Source of the DNA: Nocardioides luteus
GTDB lineage: Bacteria; Actinomycetota; Actinomycetes; Propionibacteriales; Nocardioidaceae
Length of the DNA: 64,000 nt
Direction of reading: 5' to 3'
Assembly: GCF_015752315.1 (NCBI RefSeq)
Contig: NZ_JADOVJ010000001.1
Span: forward strand, 4,084,501-4,148,500
The notes beneath the pieces are model-generated. The model ran no database searches. It was not told where the DNA came from and was given only the letters and a program-made list of their open reading frames with translations. The position numbers and the translations under genes were made by a program. Positions 16,403-49,070 of this stretch are shown here, piece after piece (the stretch's first letter is position 1; each line of letters starts with the position of its first letter).

Positions 16403-16451
16403 GTCTCCATGCAACCACGAACAAGCTCCTTCCCTCCACGATCAGCGCTGG

Positions 16452-16556
16452 AGCGCCCCTCGTCTGGACGCAGCGCAGAGAGGAGCGAAGCGACGAACGG
16501 AGCGGAGGAAGACGAGGGTCAAGCGCAAGCGCTGCGCGAATTGCGAAGCAATCGCA
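16452..16556. repeat. CCCTCGTCT/AGACGAGGG intergenic repeat, copy A
   Basis: About 105 bp between divergent tfoX-like and rmuC genes, nearly identical to 48965-49070. The outer part is bounded by CCCTCGTCT and AGACGAGGG (inverted) around purine-rich GGAGCG words. The last 22 bp hold the GCGAATTGCGAAGCAATCGC hairpin. A third copy lacking that hairpin is at 63906-63969 in the opposite orientation. Confidence 0.75.
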
Positions 16557-16593
16557 GACAAAACTGTCGGTGGTGCCTGCGAGGATCTGAGGT

Positions 16594-18900: not shown

Positions 18901-19899
18901 TCAACCCCTCGCGGACGCTGCCTTGAGGTCTTTGCGCAGCTCCTTGGGCAGCGCGAAGATCAGCGACTCCTCGGCGCTCTTGTGGGCCTTGGCGTCGGGG
19001 AAGCCACGGTCCTTCAGGAACCCGACGACACCCTCGACCAGCTTCTCGGGGACGCTGGCACCGGAGGTGACCGAGACGCTGCGTACGCCCTCGAGCCAGG
19101 ACTCGTCGATCTCGCTGGCGTCGTCGACGCGGTAGGCCGCCTTGGCGCCGGCCTCGAGCGCGACCTCGACCAGGCGGACCGAGTTGGAGGAGTTGCCGGA
19201 CCCGACGACGATGACCAGGTCGCTAGCCGCGCCGATCTCCTTGACGGCCTGCTGGCGGTTCTGGGTGGCATAGCAGATGTCGTCGCTGGGCGGGTCGAGC
19301 AGCTCGGGGAACTTCACCCGGAGCGCGGCGACGGTGTCCATGGTCTCGTCGACCGAGAGCGTGGTCTGGGAGAGCCAGACGACCTTGGAGGGGTCGGGAA
19401 CCTCGATGCCGGGTACGTCGTCAGGGCCCTCGACGAGCGTGGTCGCCTCCGGCGCCTCGCCCATGGTGCCCTCGACCTCCTCGTGACCGGCGTGGCCGAT
19501 CAGCAGGATGCTGTAGCCCTCGCGCGCGAACCGCTTGGCCTCGAGGTGGACCTTGGTGACCAGCGGGCAGGTCGCGTCGATCGTCTTCAGCTCACGCACG
19601 GCCGCATCGGCGTGGACCGCCGGGGAGACGCCGTGGGCGGAGAAGACGACGGTCGCCCCCGAAGGCACCTCGTCGAGCTCGTTGACGAACACCGCACCGC
19701 GGTTGCGGAGGTCGTCGACGACGTGCTTGTTGTGGACGATCTCCTTGCGCACGTAGACCGGCGCACCGTAGAGGTCCAGGGCCTCTTCGACGGTGATCAC
19801 GGCCCGATCCACCCCGGCGCAGTAGCCGCGCGGCTCGGCGAGAAGGACGGCCTTCTCGTCGTCGGTGATCAGGCGTGGGGTGCCGAGGTCGATGCTCAT
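18901..19899 (-). CDS. ispH: 4-hydroxy-3-methylbut-2-enyl diphosphate reductase
   Basis: A 332-residue IspH, the last enzyme of the MEP isoprenoid pathway, making IPP and DMAPP. The three [4Fe-4S] cysteines are in RGYCAGV (Cys27), DATCPLV and ICYATQN. The [14 protein letters not shown] substrate loop is present. It ends 33 nt from the yciO-like gene on the same strand, but each has its own predicted -10. TAGACT lies 6 nt ahead of the ATG, indicating a leaderless start. Its upstream region is wholly occupied by the 32-bp repeat array. Confidence 0.96.
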
Positions 19900-19911
19900 G
19901 GCTTCAGTCTA
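19900..19911 (-). promoter_or_regulatory. -10 element and leaderless start of ispH
   Basis: On the minus strand TAGACT (19906-19911) is 6 nt before the ATG of ispH. The first 32-bp repeat unit begins 9 bp upstream, so the -35 region lies inside the repeat array. Confidence 0.55.
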
Positions 19912-19919
19912 GAGACCCG

Positions 19920-20161
19920 GTGCACGCATGCCGACTCGGCGCGTCAGTCCCACACCACGACACCGACCCGGCGCATCTGTCCCGCCGATCTGCGTCGAGT
20001 CGGCGCATCTGTCCCACGGTTGCCCGTCGGACCGGGACAGACGCGCCGACTCGACGCTCTGAGGCGGGGCAGACGCGCCGAGTGGGCATGCGTGTGTGGG
20101 GCAGACGCGCCGAGTGGGCATGCGTGTGTGGGGCAAACGGGCCGAGTGGGCGGGCACTAGG
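19920..20161. repeat. seven-unit 32-bp inverted tandem array between ispH and xseA
   Basis: Seven contiguous 32-bp units fill the divergent gap. Units 1-3 (19920-19951, 19952-19983, 19984-20015) read on the minus strand. Units 4-7 (20034-20065, 20066-20097, 20098-20129, 20130-20161) read on the plus strand. An 18-bp spacer (20016-20033) separates the halves. The core is GGGACAGACGCGCCGA followed by a variable C/G-T-C/G and then GGCATGCGTG. Units 5 and 6 are identical. Units 3 and 4 differ at one of their first 24 bases. Unit 7 runs into the xseA -10. Confidence 0.9.
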
Positions 20162-20169
20162 GTGGCGCC
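20158..20169 (+). promoter_or_regulatory. -10 element and leaderless start of xseA
   Basis: TAGGGT (20158-20163) is 6 nt before ATG 20170, and its first bases overlap the end of repeat unit 7. No ribosome-binding site is present. Confidence 0.5.
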
Positions 20170-21402
20170 ATGGCCCTGGACACCTCTCCCGAGTCGCCCG
20201 CTCCGGTGCGGCAGATCGCGAACGCGATCGGCGGTTGGATCGACAAGCTCGGTGCAGTCTGGGTGGAGGGGCAGGTCGCCCAGCTGAGCCGGCGGCCGGG
20301 GATGCAGACGGTGTTCCTGACGTTGCGTGACTCGGTGGCCGACATCTCGGTGCCGGTGACGTGCACCCGGTTCCTTCTCGACAGCCTTAACCCGCCGCTG
20401 GTCGAAGGGGCGTCGGTGATCATCCACGCGAAGCCGTCCTACTACGCCAACCGCGGCACCCTGTCGCTGCAGGCCCGCGACATCCGTCCGGTCGGGCTCG
20501 GCGAGCTGCTCGCACGGCTCGAGCAGCGCCGGCAGCTCCTGGCCGCCGAGGGGCTCTTCGCCGCCGAGCTCAAGCGGCCGCTGCCCTTCCTGCCGACGAA
20601 GGTCGGTCTGGTCACCGCGGCCAACTCCGCGGCCGAGCGGGACGTGCTCGAGAACGCGCGGCGGCGGTGGCCGCAGGTGCGGTTCGAGGTGGCGTACGCA
20701 GCGATGCAGGGGTCGCGCAGCGCCGCCGACGTCGTCGAGAAGCTGCAGCGGCTCGACCGCGACCCCGAGGTCGACGTCATCGTCGTCGCCCGCGGCGGCG
20801 GCTCCGTCGAGGACCTGCTGCCCTTCTCCGACGAGCACCTGATCCGTGCGGTGCACGCCGCCCGCACGCCGATCGTCTCCGCGATCGGCCACGAGCCCGA
20901 CTCGCCGCTGCTGGACCTGGCTGCCGACGTACGTGCCTCGACGCCGACCGACGCCGCCAAGCTCGTCGTGCCCGACGTGGTCGAGGAGCAGCGGATCGTC
21001 GCGACCGGTCGTGACCGGCTCCGCGGCGGCATCGCCGCGCTGGTCCACCGCGAGCAGACGCTCCTCGACGCGCTGCGTTCGCGTCCGGTGCTGGCCGACC
21101 CGCGTTCGCTGATCGACGCCCGGCGTGACGAGGTCACCTCGCTGCGCGACCGCGCCCGCCGCACCGTCGGTCACGCCCTCGACCGGGCCGCCGACGACAT
21201 CGGCCACCATCGTGCCCGCGCCCGTGCGCTCTCACCCCTGGAGACGCTCAGACGGGGCTACGCCGTCGCCCAGGACGCCGACGGGCACGTGCTCACCAGC
21301 GTCACCGACGCCACCGAGGGCGCCGCCGTCAGCATCCGCCTCGCCGACGGTCGCCTGGCCGCCACCATCACCTCGACCGAGAAGGACCCAGCCGATGACT
21401 GA
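20170..21402 (+). CDS. xseA: exodeoxyribonuclease VII large subunit
   Basis: A 410-residue XseA: an OB-fold nucleic-acid-binding domain (~15-110), then the catalytic domain with [16 protein letters not shown] and [29 protein letters not shown], and a helical C-terminus ending in the [19 protein letters not shown] tail segment. With XseB it degrades single-stranded DNA in both directions. The small-subunit gene overlaps its last 8 nt. The start at ATG 20170 abuts the 32-bp array. Confidence 0.95.
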
Positions 21403-21604
21403 CTCCGACGACACCGACAAGAACCTCTCCTACGAGCAGGCCCGCGAGGAGCTGGTCGAGGTCGTCCGCAAGCTCGAGGCCGGCGGCATCACCCTCGAGG
21501 AGTCGCTGGCCCTGTGGGAGCGCGGCGAGAAGCTGGCCACGCTGTGCCAGGAGTGGCTCGACGGCGCCCGGAAGAAGATCGACGCCGCCATCGGCGACGA
21601 CTGA
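21395..21604 (+). CDS. xseB: exodeoxyribonuclease VII small subunit
   Basis: A 69-residue XseB with [41 protein letters not shown] helices; the LExG and ESLxLWERGE positions are conserved in the family. Its ATG lies 8 nt inside the end of xseA, so the two are translationally coupled for the multi-small-subunit enzyme. Confidence 0.95.
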
Positions 21605-48964: not shown

Positions 48965-49070
48965 AGCGCCCCTCGTCTGGACGGAGCGGAGCGAGGAGCG
49001 CCAGCGACGAGCGCAGCGGAGGAAGACGAGGGTCAAGCGGAGGTGCTGCGCGAATTGCGAAGCAATCGCA
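48965..49070. repeat. CCCTCGTCT/AGACGAGGG intergenic repeat, copy B
   Basis: Nearly identical over ~105 bp to 16452-16556. It ends in the GCGAATTGCGAAGCAATCGCA hairpin, which here lies 6 nt beyond the stop of the gene ending at 49077 (minus strand). Confidence 0.75.

Follow-up and report, generated by a model that had tools for sequence, protein, structure and literature searches.

A palindromic repeat array in the ispH-xseA gap of Nocardioides luteus and its relation to a repeat family lying mostly behind stop codons

What is the function, if any, of an array of short repeats that occupies the whole gap between two divergent genes, ispH (LytB) and xseA (exonuclease VII large subunit)? The array lies in a 64-kb window (the whole stretch of DNA analysed here), positions 4,084,501-4,148,500 of one 5.82-Mb contig of Nocardioides luteus. 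The original prediction saw in it a phased platform for a DNA-binding protein, or a chromosome-organising site, which could jointly control ispH and xseAB.

The layout first described was confirmed: seven 32-bp units, three inverted against four, keep an exact 32-bp period inside each half on either side of an 18-bp centre (Table 1). Units 5 and 6 match at all 32 positions, which suggests a recent tandem duplication, and between units 3 and 4 there is one difference in 24 bp. The array abuts two -10-like hexamers, each 6 bases from its start codon, whose promoter role is a reading of the sequence, and a 93-nt inverted repeat, 80% complementary, runs across its centre. A search for the core with up to three mismatches gave seven matches in the window, all in this array; shuffled windows gave 5.2 on average and often reached seven (28 of 100 shuffles), so that the count is weak evidence and the evidence lies instead in the clustering and the period. 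A known RNA family was discarded as an explanation, as Rfam yielded for positions 19600-20500 a single match with E < 1, at 24.1 bits for a gathering score of 80.

Table 1. Features of the ispH-xseA gap and its flanking genes (positions in the window)
Feature	Position	Strand	Remarks
ispH (LytB)	18901..19899	-	PF02401
ispH -10-like TAGACT	19906..19911	-	start codon 19899; leaderless-type; putative promoter
Unit 1	19920..19951	-	core 19936-19951; sole exact GCCGASTCGGC palindrome of the array
Unit 2	19952..19983	-	core 19968-19983; palindrome altered
Unit 3	19984..20015	-	core 20000-20015; palindrome off by one base
18-bp centre	20016..20033	.	core-to-core offset 34; mostly 24 in other two-sided arrays of the genome
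Unit 4	20034..20065	+	core 20034-20049, the consensus core
Unit 5	20066..20097	+	core from 20066; same sequence as unit 6
Unit 6	20098..20129	+	core from 20098; same sequence as unit 5
Unit 7	20130..20161	+	core from 20130, 3 mismatches; last 4 bases overlap the xseA -10-like hexamer
xseA -10-like TAGGGT	20158..20163	+	start codon 20170; putative promoter
xseA (exonuclease VII large subunit)	20170..21402	+	PF02601
xseB (exonuclease VII small subunit)	21395..21604	+	PF02609

The unit is not confined to this locus. A genome-wide search, proposed along with the original prediction, found the core throughout the 5.8-Mb chromosome, with 117 matches at up to two mismatches (61 forward, 56 reverse) and 3 for the reversed-pattern control. 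A profile built from 35 fetched stretches (28 of them in its gene-context version) shows conservation over a 23-bp block, GGGACAGWYGCGCCGASTCGGCG, ending in the palindrome GCCGASTCGGC and followed by about 9 variable bases. Two-sided arrays carry minus-strand units to the left and plus-strand units to the right of the centre, most commonly with 24 bp between core starts. The exact palindrome occurs in 1 of 7 units in the ispH-xseA array as against 69 of 130 elsewhere in the genome (p = 0.06); the core pattern used in N. luteus contains only the first five bases of the palindrome. That the ispH-xseA array is a member of this repeat family is, in our judgement, very likely. Several types of head, the part of the block preceding the palindrome, can coexist in one genome, as they do in this one (G000). 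Plasmid iterons were dismissed as an identity: 33 clusters of the unit lie on the one contig beside varied genes, and a 301-bp stretch searched against 72,556 plasmid records gave no match.

Among the longest arrays of the genome are L053 (1879-2427; 7 minus and 9 plus units, 85-bp core offset) and L031 (3285-3675; 3 minus and 10 plus units), both with runs of identical spacers, which suggests growth by tandem duplication. Three hairpin elements, nearly identical and some 70 bp long, in which GCCGASTCGGC has the head GCATCCGACCCC and a GCTTCGCTTCGC loop, sit at different loci (approximately L023 1980-2083, L032 1977-2051 and L043 2007-2081) and look like the recent dispersal of one copy. The window also holds a second dispersed repeat, at about 16450-16560 and at 48968-49070, of the form CTCGTCTGGACG ... 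GAGCGAAGCGA-like ... GAAGACGAGGGTCAAGCG ... GCGAATTGCGAAGCAATCGC; its GAAGACGAGGGTCAAGCG part has 9 genome matches at up to one mismatch and none in the control. Over 37 hand-listed positions, bias along the chromosome was not significant for the first harmonic and reached p ~0.013 for the second.

Genes were called with a simple script based on codon usage, in place of a published gene finder, and 33 clusters were placed from 100 of the 117 core matches listed, with some two-mismatch matches unplaced; seven of the 35 fetched stretches, selected for isolated two-mismatch matches (L027, L029, L035, L042, L044, L046, L048), one match within a gene of L034 and clusters with other heads are outside this count. 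Nineteen of these clusters are convergent, 13 tandem and a single one, the ispH-xseA array itself, divergent, against 12, 42 and 13, respectively, for 67 neighbouring gene pairs that come from the window alone, ispH-xseA included (Fisher, p = 0.00015 for convergent and p = 0.03 for divergent). The idea that units point at promoters was overturned by this gene calling. The palindrome end faces the adjacent stop codon in nine of ten one-sided clusters; in the tenth (L031, 1488569) it does not, and a weak opposite unit adjoins the stop codon. A Pfam scan of six genes adjacent or close to other arrays showed ordinary, varied functions.

The same gap in related genomes was then compared. Twenty xseA loci were fetched and the ispH gap was readable in 15, ispH not being found in the stretch for G020, G002, G123, G014 and G085. 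Eight genomes, N. luteus G000 included, form a close clade with XseA at least 95% identical, and six of them have an array here: of the GGGACAG type in G000 and, in the matching position, of the GTCAKGA type in G011, G113, G039, G052 and G001. G110 keeps only a remnant, and G015 has no array in the gap despite an XseA 98% identical. The seven more distant readable genomes have no array in this gap, although two of them, G003 and G022, have members of the family at other loci; in a relative, G040, which is without palindrome pairs, the gap (L066) holds a different short C-rich repeat of about 11 bp, CTGTCCCC-like. A -10-like hexamer is retained on both sides in all eight close-clade gaps, as judged by eye. 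An array at ispH-xseA probably predates the divergence of the close clade; situated between two putative divergent promoters, it would seem to be dispensable there.

A locus-specific platform controlling ispH and xseAB jointly would account for arrays filling the divergent gap in six of the eight close-clade genomes and for an array adjoining both hexamers in the window; it does not account for G015, G110 and the change of head type, nor for the same unit in at least 32 other N. luteus clusters, mostly behind stop codons and none called divergent. Joint control is not supported by these data, and we consider it highly improbable.

How far does the family extend? Among named genomes, 13 stretches contain two cores 32 bp apart, and in every case the title is Nocardioides (N. 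luteus, N. albus, N. turkmenicus, strain YR527 and a MAG). At least 12 core matches with up to one mismatch occur in 9 of 196 Nocardioides genomes. We also searched the order and viral contigs for palindrome pairs, that is, copies of GCCGASTCGGC 9-33 bases apart. At least one pair is present in 76 of the 196 Nocardioides genomes and at least five in 51, with a maximum of 136 (reversed control, 0-3), and 120 have none. Across the order (293 genomes), more than two pairs were found, besides Nocardioides, only in one other genus of the same family, in both of its two genomes (9 and 68 pairs). Viral contigs gave 6 stretches in 2.9 million, and a phage origin was rejected. Heads vary by species while the palindrome under them is constant, a constancy between species that is partly ascertained, the exact palindrome being part of the search pattern outside N. 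luteus.

A set of 112 arrays from 40 species, each defined by one exact palindrome with a neighbour within 60 bp (a definition that excludes the ispH-xseA array) and taken in other species mostly from the first places listed, gave the same picture of position: 62 arrays are convergent, 46 tandem and 1 divergent, with 2 inside called genes and 1 at a locus edge, so that 109 lie between called genes. From the stop codon to the first palindrome the median distance is 10 bp (range -29 to 377). The sole divergent array of the set, L157 of the sister genus (G288, 1500-1639), is 163-189 bp from both genes.

The spacing of neighbouring palindromes in this set is banded: 71 spacings fall at 21-24 bp, 192 at 30-33 and 25 at 38-45, with none at 25-29, one at 34-37 and five above 45 (four at 50-53, one at 60). 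At least two bands occur in 16 of the 40 species. When each species was counted once per spacing (n = 75, over the evenly searched range of 20-44), none of 20,000 uniform simulations was as periodic, in a test for which related species and duplicated units are less independent than it assumes; the best-fitting period is 9.6 (R 0.77), with R 0.72 at 10.5. Such spacings would set the palindromes on one face of the helix.

The blocks also change more slowly than the spacers between them. Over six orthologous locus pairs (G000 against N. turkmenicus three times, and against strain YR527, N. albus and N. luteus), 49 of 670 block positions and 52 of 171 spacer positions are changed, that is, 4.2 times less in blocks (p = 5e-14), in a count that includes a spurious 23-bp block match in L034 and omits unaligned positions (block/spacer: L047 1/0, L022 0/2, L031 202/83, L037 69/26, L026 47/18). 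Aligned genes at these loci differ at 10-22% of third codon positions and 4-17% of all coding positions. The number and order of units are retained at L047/L012 and L034/L014; the number differs at L022/L018, L031/L010 and L037/L020, one L031 array has no counterpart in strain YR527, and at L055/L091 and L028/L083 the orthologous gap holds another head type. Gene conversion or concerted evolution between copies could, as an alternative to selection, explain the likeness of the blocks. The original notion of a helically phased protein-binding or chromosome-organising element gains support from the phasing across the 112 arrays and from the slower change of the blocks; that a protein binds is still something we infer.

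The stop-codon position and a polarity on the sense strand also suit RNA hairpins. Beside stop codons, the centre base of the palindrome reads G in 100 cases and C in 31 (112-array set), which is not expected of a symmetric DNA site. The repeats could then be transcription terminators or mRNA 3'-end hairpins, the inverted halves making a long stem that would serve as a bidirectional terminator or a barrier to exonucleases; the short distance to stop codons and the excess between convergent genes fit this. Folding speaks both ways: the energies are -31 kcal/mol (z -7.7) for the 34-nt centre of G001-type arrays and -3.7 kcal/mol (z about -3) for the bare 11-nt palindrome, but the hairpin of the 23-nt unit is weak (-6.5 kcal/mol, z -1.2; 23 of 200 shuffles fold as well). 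So does covariation, on which two sets of centres disagree: it is weak in 16 centres hand-picked from several genomes (1 of 500 shuffles) and absent from 14 listed G175 centres, for which 470 of 500 shuffles score as high. A consistent T-tract was not seen by eye in the flanks inspected, a hairpin has no need of 10-bp phasing to work, and an array between divergent genes is left unexplained. We regard this explanation as possible but unlikely.

A selfish or neutral repeat, short, palindromic and mobile, that is tolerated behind genes and expands by slippage or recombination without any host function would explain the patchy distribution (fewer than half of the Nocardioides genomes have any pair), the near-identical copies at L023, L032 and L043, the absence from G015, the exchange of head types at ispH-xseA, L055/L091 and L028/L083, the variable unit numbers in orthologous gaps, and the identical neighbouring units. 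It does not readily explain why blocks change so much less than spacers, nor why the same phasing is found under different heads in many species, and the expected Y1 transposase was not found in bearers; a selfish element whose mobiliser needs palindrome and phasing would fit too. We hold a purely selfish nature to be rather improbable.

Among known systems, the ispH-xseA repeats are related in kind to REP/BIME repeats (E. coli BIME-2, Pseudomonas, Stenotrophomonas), placed unusually. Like these, they are short, extragenic and palindromic, have many copies and form clusters that include inverted units. They lie for the most part downstream of stop codons, between genes that are convergent or tandem, and to this the ispH-xseA array is the exception in its own genome. 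Most conv-REPs in the two genomes shown in PMC3733652 are less than 20 bp from both 3' ends, stem-loops are described as preferring convergent gaps in bacteria generally (PMC1590033), and BIMEs as binding IHF and gyrase and taking part in Rho-dependent termination (PMC2817692). Unlike REP/BIME repeats, the Nocardioides palindrome has just 11-13 bp with a centre of 1-3 bases, repeats head to tail about every 22 or 32 bp, stays the same under changing heads, and, within the order searched, reaches high numbers only in Nocardioides and a single sister genus. Nor was a RAYT gene found with it: Y1_Tnp (PF01797) was found in none of 18 genomes, 9 of them core-rich, and among all 196 Nocardioides genomes only in G150 (86% complete), itself without a palindrome pair. 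REPIN/RAYT mobilisation was rejected, Y1_Tnp not being found in bearers.

CGTC-tagged REPs resemble the family in that no dedicated transposase is known for them (Di Nocera 2013, PMC3733652) and in a CGTC-like string after the palindrome of some subfamilies here (TCGTC, GCGTC). Identity with them was ruled out: they are described there with stems of 8-9 bp, loops of 4-5 bases and A-T first pairs, and in the fold of GCCGASTCGGC the loop has 3 bases and the stem 4 bp, or 5 bp when the flanking C/G is counted. The word Actinobacteria is absent from the main text of that paper, as is Nocardioides from the main text of the RepRanger paper (PMC12306157). A literature search by title and abstract, covering few subscription papers, returned no description of this element; the string GCCGAGTCGGC occurs in papers that, by title and abstract, are on other subjects.

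Another likeness is to the sites of chromosome-organising proteins. The sites matS, SlmA and Noc are short dimer-bound palindromes dispersed around the chromosome; they are mostly single, not in phased arrays, their protein is known, and they are not known to prefer 3' ends. The Nocardioides element is likewise a short palindrome repeated around the chromosome, with a putative binding protein.

Taken together, these sequences show a family with a defined position, polarity and phasing, slower change of blocks than of spacers, identical neighbouring units and head types that differ between relatives at the same site. We put at about even chances a genus-level REP/BIME-like family without RAYT that is probably read as DNA by a palindrome-binding protein at gene ends, a reading we prefer because phasing and block conservation favour recognition of duplex DNA; the polar centre base speaks against it, as does the fact that the genus can do without the family, most of its genomes having no pair. 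In such an element the 11-bp palindrome would be repeated at intervals of about whole helical turns, each copy with a head particular to the species or subfamily. The copies would run in tandem, often as two inverted halves, and typically begin some 10 bp after a stop codon, the palindrome end facing the gene. A dimeric DNA-binding protein would recognise the palindrome, and several dimers on one helix face may form a compact complex at gene ends, which would serve as an insulator or roadblock where transcription units converge, or else in nucleoid architecture. Arrays would grow by tandem duplication and be spread or homogenised by recombination or a putative mobiliser. More tentatively, GCCGASTCGGC may be the operator of an undescribed Nocardioidaceae protein in a phased gene-end insulator or roadblock, in which linkers are free to vary and palindrome and phase are kept.

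REP-type repeats are, in the literature examined, known mainly from Proteobacteria, and their spread is linked there to RAYT transposases. The Nocardioides family, which has no detectable RAYT, a single palindrome under varying heads and helical phasing, helps in telling DNA-level explanations of such repeats from RNA-level ones; it offers natural experiments, in which the same locus has a different head type, a different number of units or none, and the repeat itself can serve as bait for finding the binding protein.
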